From contig NEWP02000021.1 in the NCBI GenBank assembly GCA_002869895.2, forward strand, positions 29,491 through 93,490: a DNA stretch of 64,000 bases, read 5' to 3'. A model generated the notes under the pieces. That model was not told the origin of the DNA, ran no database searches, and saw only the letters and a list, made by a program, of their open reading frames with translations. The DNA comes from Nitrospira sp. CG24E (lineage in GTDB: Bacteria > Nitrospirota > Nitrospiria > Nitrospirales > Nitrospiraceae). Made by a program: the position numbers and the translations under genes. Shown here in pieces: positions 739 to 4,785 of this stretch (positions are counted from its first letter, which is position 1; the number at the start of each line of letters is the position of its first letter).

Positions 739-1236
739 GTGGCTGAGCAATTTTCGTTCGATGTGGTTTCGGAAGTGGACATGCAAGAGATGAAGAATGT
801 CGTCGATCAGGCGACAAAGGAGATTAAACAGCGCTTCGACTTTAAAGATTCGAAGACGGAGATTACGTTGAAGGAAAAGGAAAAAGAACTGGTTCTGCTG
901 TCCGACGATGAATATAAGCTTAATGCGGTGAACGACATCGTCAAAACCAAGTGTGTGAAGCGCGGAGTCTCGCTGAAGGCGTTCACCTATGGGGCCGTGG
1001 AGCCGGCGCTGAGCGGGACGGTGCGCCAGGTGGCGAAGATTCAAAGCGGCATCGCGGCGGATAAGGCCAAAGAAGTGGCAAAGGCCATCAAGGAGTCCAA
1101 GCTGAAAGTGCAGGCGCAGATTCAGGGCGAGCAGGTGCGCATGTTGAGTAAGAGCAAGGATGACCTCCAGGCGGCGATGGCGTTTCTCAAAACCAAAGAC
1201 TTTGGGATCGATCTGCAGTTCACCAACTACCGTTAA
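739..1236 (+). CDS. yajQ: YajQ family nucleotide/cyclic-di-GMP-binding protein
   Basis: The 165-residue product matches the full length of the YajQ family, which folds as two ferredoxin-like domains and binds nucleotides; some members bind cyclic di-GMP and act as transcription co-regulators. Diagnostic stretches are FSFDVVSEVDMQE at the N-terminus, QRFDFKDSK at about residues 31-39, CVKRGVSLKAF near 73-83 and the C-terminal QFTNYR. The start is GTG at 739, 4 nt after a purine-rich GAGAGGAGGGG site. The gene stands alone, with repeat-rich DNA on both sides. A PilZ protein elsewhere in the window (47864-48187) is another candidate cyclic-di-GMP receptor. The exact role in this organism is unknown. 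Confidence 0.93.
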   Translation: MAEQFSFDVVSEVDMQEMKNVVDQATKEIKQRFDFKDSKTEITLKEKEKELVLLSDDEYKLNAVNDIVKTKCVKRGVSLKAFTYGAVEPALSGTVRQVAKIQSGIAADKAKEVAKAIKESKLKVQAQIQGEQVRMLSKSKDDLQAAMAFLKTKDFGIDLQFTNYR

Positions 1237-1243
1237 CCGGTAA

Positions 1244-1366
1244 CGGGATGGTGAAAAATGCCGCCAGCTTTGTTCTCGCATCGTTCAGACCCTCAACGTA
1301 CCACAAGGGTACGCCTCGGGCCTTCACTCGCTGTGGCCTCGCTGGACGACATTTTTGACCATCCCG
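1244..1366 (+). repeat. F2 repeat copy a (123 nt, complementary ends)
   Basis: The left end CGGGATGGTGAAAAATG (1244-1260) is complementary to the right end CATTTTTGACCATCCCG (1350-1366) with one mismatch. The interior has a CGTACC-ACAA-GGGTACG hairpin and the family-typical CTGTGGCCTCGCTGGA. It sits 8 nt after the yajQ stop and could act as a terminator-like structure. Interior sequence is shared with 52982-53111 while the ends are different. Confidence 0.8.
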
Positions 1367-1384
1367 CAAGGCCTTGTCTTGTGC

Positions 1385-2404
1385 ATGGCTAGAATTCTTA
1401 TTCTCACTCTTTTTCTGGCGCTCTCCCTCGCCGGCTGCAATCGCAGCGATCCCATCGTCGTCATCCAGCTCAACCCGAAGAATCCTGACATTATTTACGT
1501 CGCGACGAACGACTACATCTATAAGACGCGCGATGGGGGGCAGACTTGGGCAAACCTTTCGAAAGGGATGAGCCATTCGCGCGTGATTTCGATGGCAGTC
1601 GATCCAGTCTATCCGGCCACGGTCTATGCTGGTACGAAGGGCGATGCGGTCTTTAAAAGTCATGATGGCGGGCAGCGCTGGGCTTCAATGCGTTCGGGGT
1701 TGGACGATGCCACGATCTCGTCGGTTGTCAATCAGTTTGTCTTCGATCCGGCGGACAACAATCACATCTATCTCGCCACGACGATGGGTGTGTCCGAAAC
1801 GAAAGACGGCGGCGAGCATTGGGTGAAGAAAATGGAAGGGATGAAGGAAGTGCTGATGGTGGTCACATTGGGTATGGATCCGACGAGACCGGCGATCTTA
1901 TATGCGGGTACGAGCGGCGGCGTGTACAAAACGATCGACGAGGCCGGTCACTGGGAAAAGGTGAACAACGGTCTTGTATCGCCGGACATCATTAAATCGT
2001 CGCGTGCGCTCAGCGTGACGTCGGTGTTGGTCGACCCGTTTGAGCCTGATACGGTCTATGCCTCCACGTTAACAGGACTCTATAAGACAATGGATGGTGG
2101 GAGGGCTTGGGTGCGGATCGGACAGTCTCTGCAAGACCAAATGTTGTTTTCGATGATCCTAGACCGTACGAAAAAGGGCGTCATTTATCTGGCTGGTCGG
2201 GAGGGTGTCCATCGGAGCGAAGATGGTGGGGCGACCTGGAGTACGCTGAATACTGGTCTTGCGACGCTCAACATCCGATCGCTCGTGCAGAGTCCGACCG
2301 ATCCGAACATGTTCTATGCAGGGACGAACGGGAGTGGTTTATATAGGAGTCACAATCGAGGGACGACATGGGAGTCAGTACCGACTGTACTCCCTAGCCA
2401 GTGA
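1385..2404 (+). CDS. Exported lipoprotein with seven BNR/Ycf48-like propeller repeats
   Basis: ATG at 1385 gives a short signal peptide (MARILILTLFLALSLAGC) ending in a LAGC lipobox, so the mature protein should be lipid-anchored from the Cys. An upstream in-frame TTG at 1355 would bury the signal peptide and is less likely. The rest is seven repeats of about 43-50 residues, each with an (I/V)YxxT...G-V/I-(Y/F)KS/T-xDGGxxW pattern, e.g. YKTRDGGQTW, FKSHDGGQRW, YKTMDGGRAW. Seven such Asp-box units usually form one beta-propeller, as in Ycf48/HCF136 or sortilin-like domains. No catalytic residues are recognisable. It may be a scaffold or assembly factor; the partner is unknown. Confidence 0.82.
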   Translation: MARILILTLFLALSLAGCNRSDPIVVIQLNPKNPDIIYVATNDYIYKTRDGGQTWANLSKGMSHSRVISMAVDPVYPATVYAGTKGDAVFKSHDGGQRWASMRSGLDDATISSVVNQFVFDPADNNHIYLATTMGVSETKDGGEHWVKKMEGMKEVLMVVTLGMDPTRPAILYAGTSGGVYKTIDEAGHWEKVNNGLVSPDIIKSSRALSVTSVLVDPFEPDTVYASTLTGLYKTMDGGRAWVRIGQSLQDQMLFSMILDRTKKGVIYLAGREGVHRSEDGGATWSTLNTGLATLNIRSLVQSPTDPNMFYAGTNGSGLYRSHNRGTTWESVPTVLPSQ

Positions 2405-2409
2405 GAGGG

Positions 2410-3438
2410 TTACTGTTGCGGGCCGGTGCTCCGTTCCTGGATAGTCGAACCGACTGAAGACGACCCGAACGACGAGCCGACAGCAGACTCTCGGAGGCTT
2501 GAGCCGACGCTCGAGTCCCCGAAGCTCGATCCTACCGTCGAGTCCGAGAGGCTCGACCCCACAGTGGAACGTTGCAGCGACGAGCCGACCGCCGAAGACG
2601 ATTCGCTGTTGAGGCTAGACTCGCCGATTGAAGGGCCCGCACGGCCCGTAGCGCCGATCCCAAATCCTGCCGGACCTGAGCTGCCGATATCGTGACTGTT
2701 TTTCGATGAGGCGCCGATGTGTTGACCAGTCAGACCTTCTGCGCCGATCGTGTTGCCGGTTTTCGGAGTTTTTCCGATACTCGGCCCTGCTGCCGGCACG
2801 TTGCCGATGCTGGCACCAGTCTTTGGCCCGGTCGAGAGCTTCGGCGCGCGGATGTCTGTCTCAATCGACCCTTCCATTTCACGGATTGCCAGCGCTTCAC
2901 GACCTGAGTTTTCAAAGTCCCCTGAGTCGCGAGCGTTGGTTGAAGTACTGATGCGTTCGAGCGTCGCACGCAGTTTCTTGAGATCAGCGCGAGCCTTGGC
3001 GACAGTCGGGATCATTTCGCGGAGCATGATGCCGCGCGAGGCCATCGAATGGTTCGACATGTTGGATTGAGTGGATGTGAGTAGCTCTCCGACTTCTTTT
3101 CCCATCTCTTCGACCTGCTGAAGCTCAGCGAGGTCGGTTTTGCAGCAATCGAGGAAGTTGCGATATTTGTTTAGAAATGTCGACACGTCACTCTGAAGAT
3201 TTTCAACCTTGAAGTCCTGTAGCGGTTTGTTGCCTACGGGCACATCCCCTTCTTGCTCTGATGTCTTGGCTTCTTCCTTTTCGGCAAGCGGCACGCATCC
3301 GGGTCCTTGTCTTGCTGAATATTGCCGATCGGCCTTTTGATCGGGACACCAGTAAAGCGATGATGCCGCCTGTGCCATGGTGGCCCCACCGATCACGGCA
3401 GTCAGACAGAGTGCTGTGGCAGTGATGAATGATCGCAT
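2410..3438 (-). CDS. Secreted protein with periodic Gly/Ser/Ile C-terminal repeats, unknown function
   Basis: The start at 3438 gives a classical signal peptide (MRSFITATALCLTAVIGGA...AQA), so export is likely; an in-frame upstream extension to 3504 would spoil it. The first part of the mature protein has four cysteines and a helical stretch, perhaps a coiled coil (about residues 70-180). The C-terminal third is strongly repetitive. About seven 10-residue units carry an (S/T/H/G)IG centre (GASIGN, GPSIGK, GNTIGA, GQHIGA, HDIGS). About six 9-residue units follow, of the type TVGSSLSDS, SVGSSLRES, AVGSSFGSS. The gene is convergent with the propeller lipoprotein, with 5 nt between the stops. I do not recognise a family; surface or periplasmic localisation is inference. 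Confidence 0.75.
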   Translation of the reverse strand: MRSFITATALCLTAVIGGATMAQAASSLYWCPDQKADRQYSARQGPGCVPLAEKEEAKTSEQEGDVPVGNKPLQDFKVENLQSDVSTFLNKYRNFLDCCKTDLAELQQVEEMGKEVGELLTSTQSNMSNHSMASRGIMLREMIPTVAKARADLKKLRATLERISTSTNARDSGDFENSGREALAIREMEGSIETDIRAPKLSTGPKTGASIGNVPAAGPSIGKTPKTGNTIGAEGLTGQHIGASSKNSHDIGSSGPAGFGIGATGRAGPSIGESSLNSESSSAVGSSLQRSTVGSSLSDSTVGSSFGDSSVGSSLRESAVGSSFGSSSVGSTIQERSTGPQQ

Positions 3439-3867
3439 GAAACTATTCTCAGCCCAGCTTGAATCCTTGTCAATGAAACTCGCCAACTTTGAGCCTGCTG
3501 CCATGCGCTGCCAATTCCTTGTCGGAAATATCTGTATGCGTAACCAAGATCCATGCCACAGCTCACTGTTTCGGCCAAGAGGTGAAGTCGTTTAGCTAAT
3601 GGAGTGAGTTTTCAGCTTACCCATAGAGTTTGCACATAGCCGACTAGATGTCGCGTACATCTCTCTGTAGAGCTCGGATCACCAAGAAACAGGAGTCCTC
3701 TTTCCCCACATGCGGCCGGTATCCTGCTTCAATGCCTTGATATTAGAGAAAAATCAGCGACATCCAGAACTTCATAAGTCCATGAATTTCCTGTTGACAA
3801 GTCCTATTGGGGGTGTATACTGCCGCGGCAGTGGGAGCAAGTGGGTGTATCTGGTAATAAATAATAT
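3439..3867. other. Intergenic region before the division/cell-wall cluster
   Basis: 429 nt between the divergent repeat protein and rsmH. It contains the strong promoter at 3794-3821. No RNA gene, mraZ, or other reading frame with coding character was seen in the rest. Confidence 0.7.
3794..3821 (+). promoter_or_regulatory. Sigma70-type promoter of the dcw cluster
   Basis: A perfect -35 hexamer TTGACA (3794-3799), a 16-nt spacer and a good -10 TATACT (3816-3821) lie about 47 nt before the rsmH start. This is the clearest promoter of the window and probably drives a very long cell-wall/division operon. Confidence 0.75.
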
Positions 3868-4785
3868 ATGGAGGTTTCTGGACATACCGCAGTAATGCCA
3901 GAAGAGGTTCTGTTTTGGCTGATTCAAGCTGATTGCCAAACCTATCTAGACTGTACGGTGGGGTATAGTGGGCATGCTGAAAAGCTCCTTCAGGCAAGTG
4001 GGCCTGGAAGCAGACTTATTGGGCTCGACCGCGATGAGGTGGCCATTGCAGCTAGCCAAAAAAGACTCTCACGCTTCGGCGACCGTGTGATCCTTTGCCA
4101 CGGTCACTTTGTGGATCTGAAGCAGCATCTCGCTGCCATTGGTATTGGGAAGGTCGATGGAATTTTGTTTGATCTTGGAGTCTCCTCCGTGCAGTTGGAA
4201 GACCCAGTCCGCGGCTTTAGCTTTCGGGGGGATGGGCCATTGGACATGCGTATGGATCAATCGATGAGCGGAACTGCAGCTGGCCTGATCAATCGATGGA
4301 CGGAAGCGCAGCTGGCCGACACGATTTTTCAGTTCGGCGAAGAACGGTTTTCTCGGCGAATTGCGCGTGCCATTGTTCGTGCGCGTGAACGTCAGCCATT
4401 GGCAACGACAAAAGAGTTGGTCTCCGTAATCGAAGGAGCCGTTCCTGCGAGTTATCGGCATGGTCGTATTCATTGTGCCACTCGTACGTTTCAGGCTTTT
4501 CGCATTGCAGTGAATCAAGAGCTCGACTGTCTGGAGCCGGCATTGCGCGATGCGGTAGATGCCTTGTCTCCCGGCGGACGTCTCTGCGTGATTTCATTCC
4601 ATTCGCTTGAAGATCGGATTGTCAAACACACGTTTCGGGCTCTCTCTGGCAAGGACAATCCTGCGCTGATGGTGCTGACCAAGAGACCACAGGTCCCCAC
4701 CAGTGAGGAGTCGGACAGGAATCCTCGATCCCGTAGCGCCAAGTTGCGGGCTGCTCAACGGGTATTCACGGGAGGTCGGCCATGA
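3868..4785 (+). CDS. rsmH: 16S rRNA (cytosine-1402-N4)-methyltransferase RsmH
   Basis: The 305-residue protein has the length and order of RsmH (MraW), which methylates N4 of C1402 in the P-site region of 16S rRNA using SAM. Family signatures are HTAVMPEEVL at the start, FDLGVSSVQLEDPVRGFSF at about 101-119, TRTFQAFRIAVNQEL around 207-221 and ISFHSLEDRIVKHTF near 245-259. The SAM-binding loop, usually GxGGHS, is VGYSGHA here (31-37), a mild departure. It is the first gene of the cluster, the position normally taken by mraZ-rsmH; no mraZ precedes it. The stop overlaps the next start (ATGA), suggesting translational coupling. Confidence 0.95.
   Translation: MEVSGHTAVMPEEVLFWLIQADCQTYLDCTVGYSGHAEKLLQASGPGSRLIGLDRDEVAIAASQKRLSRFGDRVILCHGHFVDLKQHLAAIGIGKVDGILFDLGVSSVQLEDPVRGFSFRGDGPLDMRMDQSMSGTAAGLINRWTEAQLADTIFQFGEERFSRRIARAIVRARERQPLATTKELVSVIEGAVPASYRHGRIHCATRTFQAFRIAVNQELDCLEPALRDAVDALSPGGRLCVISFHSLEDRIVKHTFRALSGKDNPALMVLTKRPQVPTSEESDRNPRSRSAKLRAAQRVFTGGRP

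Follow-up and report, generated by a model that had tools for sequence, protein, structure and literature searches.

A gene in the window (the full 64,000-nucleotide stretch of DNA analyzed here) encodes a protein with a repeat tail that occurs in most genomes of the family Nitrospiraceae, usually at one conserved locus. Its tail is under strong constraint and ends in a block of nonapeptides that, judging from the tree, was gained a single time. Our leading reading, held tentatively and at slightly less than even confidence, is that the protein is an exported, helical, cysteine-bearing anchor that displays a multivalent motif tail and is made from a leaderless mRNA. The gene, its parts and its neighbors lie in the window as follows.

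739 to 1236, plus strand: yajQ (DUF520), a conserved neighbor beyond the BNR lipoprotein gene.
1355 to 2404, plus strand: BNR lipoprotein gene (Sortilin-Vps10/Ycf48-type), the convergent neighbor, 5 bp separating its stop codon from that of the repeat gene.
2410 to 3438, minus strand: gene of the repeat-tail protein, with ATG at 3438 and TAA at 2410-2412, 342 amino acids; orthologs were found.
3367 to 3438, minus strand: presumed Sec signal peptide, residues 1-24, ending in MAQA (from inspection and the conservation of A24 and A25).
3277 to 3357, minus strand: motif LYWCPDxxxDxQYS...GPGCVPLxEK, residues 28-54, in which C31 and C48 do not vary across 70 family rows.
2836 to 3216, minus strand: predicted helical part, residues 75-201, with the invariant vicinal pair C98-C99 (from the alignment and a low-confidence AlphaFold model).
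2611 to 2835, minus strand: seven decapeptides xxxxxGxxIG, residues 202-276, with IGESSLN just past their end (from periodicity and row identity).
2590 to 2610, minus strand: junction between the two periods, residues 277-283, the site where relatives without nonapeptides end.
2428 to 2589, minus strand: six nonapeptides VGSS(L/F)xxSx, residues 284-337, with an 18-residue super-period; the most constrained part.
3439 to 3473, minus strand: promoter-like element, TTGACA at 3473-3468, 17 nt, GAGAAT at 3450-3445, 6 nt, then the ATG (from the pattern in orthologs).
3868 to 4785, plus strand: rsmH (mraW), first gene of a cell-wall/division cluster and the conserved divergent (head-to-head) neighbor.

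The open reading frame lies on the minus strand, the first-pass annotation having given no strand. A longer version of it starts at 3504, and we prefer the start at 3438 because the promoter-like element sits between the two. The description of the product as secreted was supported: by inspection, it has an export-like start with a basic residue, a hydrophobic core and an AxA site (MAQA-A), A24 is kept in at least 90% of 33 rows and A25 in all of them, and homologs keep such a start. The proposed helical domain was recovered at low confidence, since AlphaFold places helices at residues 81-97, 103-127, 133-170 and 179-196 of the whole protein, and no strand, with a low mean pLDDT of 41.8. The positions C31, C48, C98, C99, R150, T207 and G208 are invariant among 70 aligned members and are all present in the window protein. 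We hypothesize that the protein is exported to the periplasm or surface in Nitrospiraceae, where the two-cysteine segment and the helical domain with its vicinal cysteine pair, probably braced by disulfides, would fold or oligomerize to form the anchor. The YWC...YS...PG motif, a short motif near the signal peptide, may resemble DUF4124-like exported N-terminal segments. A DUF4124 identity was tried and rejected, as five N-terminal fragments from five family members gave no match up to an E-value of 10.

The spacing of I/V-G pairs, together with shuffling, confirmed the earlier count of seven decapeptides and six nonapeptides. These pairs fall at residues 211, 221, 231, 241, 251, 261 and 271 in the decapeptide block and at residues 284, 293, 302, 311, 320 and 329 in the nonapeptide block, with a 13-residue step from the last pair of the former to the first of the latter. 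Autocorrelation of the decapeptide block is 0.353 at lag 10 against a shuffle mean of 0.107, while that of the nonapeptide block is 0.549 and 0.571 at lags 9 and 18, respectively, against a shuffle mean of 0.16, and none of 5000 shuffles of either block matched the observed periodicity at any lag from 2 to 30. The nonapeptides follow a super-period of 18 residues, the similarity of units within the protein being 0.60 two units apart, 0.55 one apart and 0.50 three apart. The tail of our proposal would be a Ser/Gly/Thr-rich, Cys-free series of (I/V)-G-x-(S/T)-x-L repeats at 10-residue spacing, and also at 9-residue spacing in one clade, presumably without regular structure.

The history of the second block can be followed in relatives outside that clade, which stop at the end of the last decapeptide with IGDSxLN and a few further residues. 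In 30 of the 31 tree members without nonapeptides, a terminal IG(D/N/E/Q)S-like unit lies only a few residues from the end, the exception (L084) continuing for about 18 residues, and the 10-to-9 junction is therefore read as the old C-terminus. The rows with nonapeptides (39 of 70) fall on one side of one branch of a maximum-likelihood tree built from the region before the tail, with support of 100/99 and in 200 of 200 bootstrap trees. Several deep branches of this tree are long and some joins unsure, so we relied on the nonapeptide split alone. From tree and alignment we conclude that the block was gained once, at the base of one clade and at the old C-terminus. A descent of the block from IG(D/E)SxLN, the terminal unit, is no more than suggested, as shuffles reach the observed mean score in 4.7% of cases. 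The two repeat blocks of the first-pass annotation therefore stand, and its account of the shift in period as a recent expansion of two related units does not, the nonapeptides having been added once at the old C-terminus and held under purifying selection since. The underlying set of 71 genes omits fragments, broken copies and repeats (L028, L031, L042, L044, L083; L001, L032-L038, L046-L049); L045 gave no match, and L066, with a masked run, was omitted from the 70-row alignment and tree.

The strength of this selection differs among the parts of the protein. By a simple Nei-Gojobori count in 13 close species (78 pairs, with seven pair-by-region estimates undefined), the median dN/dS falls from 0.454 in the linker (53-74) and 0.40 in the signal peptide to 0.125 in the helical part, 0.12 in residues 25-52, 0.099 in the decapeptides and 0.060 in the nonapeptides, the lowest of all segments. 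Mean pairwise identity in 33 rows is 0.72 for the nonapeptides, 0.67 for the decapeptides, 0.63 for residues 75-170 and 0.36 for the linker. The final G of the decapeptides never varies, and the I before it is conserved at 0.84, flanking positions being at 0.37-0.38. A passive flexible spacer, with repeats growing and shrinking by slippage, would account for the variation in copy number (among the 39 genes, 32 have six nonapeptides, 5 have five and 2 have two). It is nevertheless improbable, since the low dN/dS of the nonapeptides comes with abundant synonymous changes, and recent slippage is not expected in the most constrained segment. Same-numbered nonapeptides are also more alike between species (0.73) than different units are within a protein (0.54; 30 full arrays), which argues for little repeat turnover, and equal residues between units of the window gene use different codons in 47 of 77 comparisons. 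A heavily O-glycosylated, mucin-like Ser/Thr stretch forming a hydrophilic brush would suit the composition of the last 141 residues (36 Ser, 11 Thr, 27 Gly and no Cys). Such stretches usually tolerate substitution, and here the exact residues are kept, which makes the brush unlikely as well; among the alternatives it ranks ahead of the spacer and behind a regular beta structure.

That first-ranked alternative, a regular beta-structured tail (beta-solenoid, beta-roll or fibre) that has two nonapeptides per 18-residue turn and projects stiffly from the surface, follows the beta-solenoid or fibre of the first-pass annotation. The strict periods of 10 and 9, the invariant Gly and Ile/Val positions, the 18-residue super-period and the very strong constraint on the tail are all in its favor, and constraint that is stronger on the tail than on the folded domain could just as well reflect a regular fold. 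On the other hand, strands are absent from both AlphaFold runs, the tail alone giving no secondary structure at a mean pLDDT of 42.3, although the underlying alignments held only 7 sequences of 78-92% identity and are too shallow to prove disorder. Besides, orthologs that share the locus differ in unit length or have irregularly spaced units, no GGxGxD RTX motif is seen by inspection, and Pfam gave no RTX, YadA-head or pentapeptide-repeat match. We therefore find the solenoid unsupported as it stands and consider it rather unlikely. Several lineages space their units by a constant 10 residues, others irregularly with steps of 13 or more, and one clade by 9, yet an I/V-G or I-x-D-(S/T) motif keeps recurring. 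Because spacing varies while the motif recurs, binding motifs suit these data better than a solenoid of fixed coils. A tail more constrained than the helical domain, with its motif kept while unit length differs among lineages, thus leads us to the multivalent ligand, in which many weak copies of the motif would bind a partner that is itself repeated, a polymer or a protein of the envelope or matrix.

The gene probably has its own promoter, as judged from the upstream sequence of its orthologs. The pattern TTGAC-N17..19-NANAAT-N4..8-start is found in 45 of the 67 orthologs with enough upstream DNA (a count that omits the three off-locus copies and L043, which has no upstream DNA), and the element ends 5-7 nt before the start; 37 of the 45 have the exact spacing of the window. 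Shuffled upstream regions gave 0.01 occurrences on average and 1 at most. As the start codons were picked by hand after the pattern had been seen, the counted spacing is partly set by that choice. Among the 22 orthologs that miss the pattern, some have TTGAC with another -10 element or spacing and some have neither. An SD-like 4-mer precedes the start in 7 of the 67. Since the -10 element of the window gene ends 6 nt before the ATG, the mRNA would lack a leader, and we propose that the gene is driven by its own promoter and translated from a probably leaderless transcript. In the same genome, the promoter pattern occurs before an ATG at six sites, including window positions 3436-3473, and at none in a reversed control; these sites are a possible set of leaderless genes.

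The order yajQ, BNR lipoprotein gene, repeat gene, rsmH is present in the window and is widely shared. In the fetched stretches around the 71 sampled genes, the same place and orientation are kept by the BNR gene in 67, yajQ in 60, rsmH in 49, and BNR and rsmH together in 48, absences partly reflecting short stretches or contig ends. The four genes without an adjacent BNR gene are L057, where a BNR gene lies further out on the contig, and the second copies L055, L059 and L067 (in genomes G127, G067 and G064, respectively), which lie elsewhere. These off-locus copies have decapeptide-only tails of the TPPTGPEIG type, and two of the three sit between genes for a sodium/calcium exchanger and an HlyD-type membrane-fusion protein. 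A dedicated partnership with the BNR lipoprotein was considered and is weakened by the range of the BNR gene, which 79 of 80 relatives have, among them genomes that lack the repeat gene and members of other families in the order. We conclude from this range that the BNR gene is older and independent, though its product could still bind the tail. The window BNR lipoprotein has a second homolog in its own genome, at 47% identity, and relatives throughout the order.

The family is nearly confined to Nitrospiraceae. A search with the protein itself matched 165 of 175 Nitrospiraceae genomes, including 111 of the 114 better ones (completeness of at least 90%, contamination of at most 5%), and none of 24 genomes from other families of the order matched in the single-protein search. 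A profile search of 395 genomes of the phylum matched 109, of which 108 are Nitrospiraceae and one (G438) is the sole match outside. The G438 array, of the PTGREIQKPA type, lies at a contig edge (L114:3-521, plus strand) in another family of the phylum; it is designed like a decapeptide tail, and its N-terminal part is off the contig. Named records among the relatives are Nitrospira, Nitrospiraceae and Nitrospirae MAGs. The window genome has a single copy of the gene, and the N-terminal segment alone found one further match there (E-value 1.26), taken as chance, so that no paralog was seen. The first-pass annotation recognized no family, and this agrees with our searches: scans of the protein against Pfam, NCBIfam and PDB gave nothing above cut-off, only Lectin_N and AHSP appeared below cut-off in Pfam up to an E-value of 1, and the family profile reached an unconvincing best E-value of 0.036 against PDB. 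When 70 members were scanned against Pfam at an E-value of 0.1, the matches were weak and scattered, each Pfam family appearing in at most three members. The tail likewise matched no known domain.

A literature search found no account of the protein. A highly transcribed exported protein of N. moscoviensis, NITMOv2_2496, is described in PMC6606698, the accessible part of which holds no evidence linking it to the repeat-tail gene, and the accessible parts of PMC8115632 and PMC7291052 make no recognizable mention of the repeat-tail protein.

The window genome encodes a 1010-residue open reading frame matching nitrite oxidoreductase subunit A (NxrA; PDB 7b04, 1347 bits), so its owner is likely a nitrite oxidizer, and an NxrA match is present in 131 of the 175 Nitrospiraceae genomes. 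This overlap in range could place the repeat-tail protein in the nitrite-oxidation machinery of Nitrospira, an idea that the pattern of gene loss renders very improbable. All four genomes of at most 2.0 Mb and at least 90% completeness (G016, G138, G197 and G020) are without an intact repeat gene: it lies in broken pieces at the locus in G016 (L042) and G138 (L107), leaves remnants there in G197 (L100; best E-value 1e-6, with no match in a reversed control), and in G020 (L099) the locus has an empty 1.3-kb interval in which no remnant was detected. These four genomes retain yajQ, BNR, rsmH and NxrA, from which we conclude that the repeat gene is not needed for nitrite oxidation. Moreover, several genomes with the gene, e.g. 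G033 and G035, have no NxrA match, some of them perhaps through assembly gaps. The small-genome rule itself has counterexamples, since G061 (1.9 Mb, 89% complete) has a whole gene, whereas in G121 (3.1 Mb) the gene is split over two frames and no match was obtained in G190 (2.7 Mb, 96% complete). A link to motility was also examined and dropped, as flagellin is absent from the four gene-losing genomes but also from 7 of 14 others tested, all of which bear the gene.

Beyond the anchor and its multivalent tail, we raise with distinctly less assurance the possibility that this is an envelope protein that defines the Nitrospiraceae as a lineage, with selection maintaining the repeated motif and not a fold or a fixed period, and with the nine-residue block, gained once, now its strictest part; it would act as a matrix- or envelope-organizing ligand of nitrite-oxidizing bacteria with no described relative. 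Nitrite oxidation in soils, waters and treatment plants is driven by Nitrospira, about whose construction of envelope and flocs little is known. Because most of the family genomes sampled keep this gene, usually at one site, and small genomes tend to lose it, it is a good candidate for an envelope or lifestyle function specific to the family. It also offers a clean natural case of repeat evolution, in which the former end of the protein, the one-time gain and the subsequent freezing of the new block can all be seen.

Several known systems resemble parts of this protein. RTX proteins are likewise exported and carry C-terminal arrays of nine-residue units with a possible 18-residue turn. However, the VGSS(L/F)xxSx units of the window protein have few acidic residues and, by inspection, no GGxGxD, and they gave no Pfam RTX match. 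RTX proteins have a C-terminal type I secretion signal and no N-terminal signal peptide, whereas the window protein starts, by inspection and in its orthologs, with a signal-peptide-like segment. Beta-solenoid repeats such as the hexapeptide, pentapeptide and YadA-head types share short regular units with one hydrophobic residue and a Gly, but the unit length of the tail changes inside the protein and between orthologs, and it has neither a Pfam match nor predicted strands. Ser/Gly- or Thr/Pro-rich extracytoplasmic linkers and mucin-like stretches are similar in composition and in their lack of predicted structure, yet the tail is far more conserved, as shown by the true linker of the same protein (53-74), with a dN/dS of 0.45 against 0.06 in the nonapeptides. 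The family is therefore undescribed while its general kind, an exported anchor with a repeat tail, is known, and what sets it apart is a repeat block that was added late and has since been frozen.
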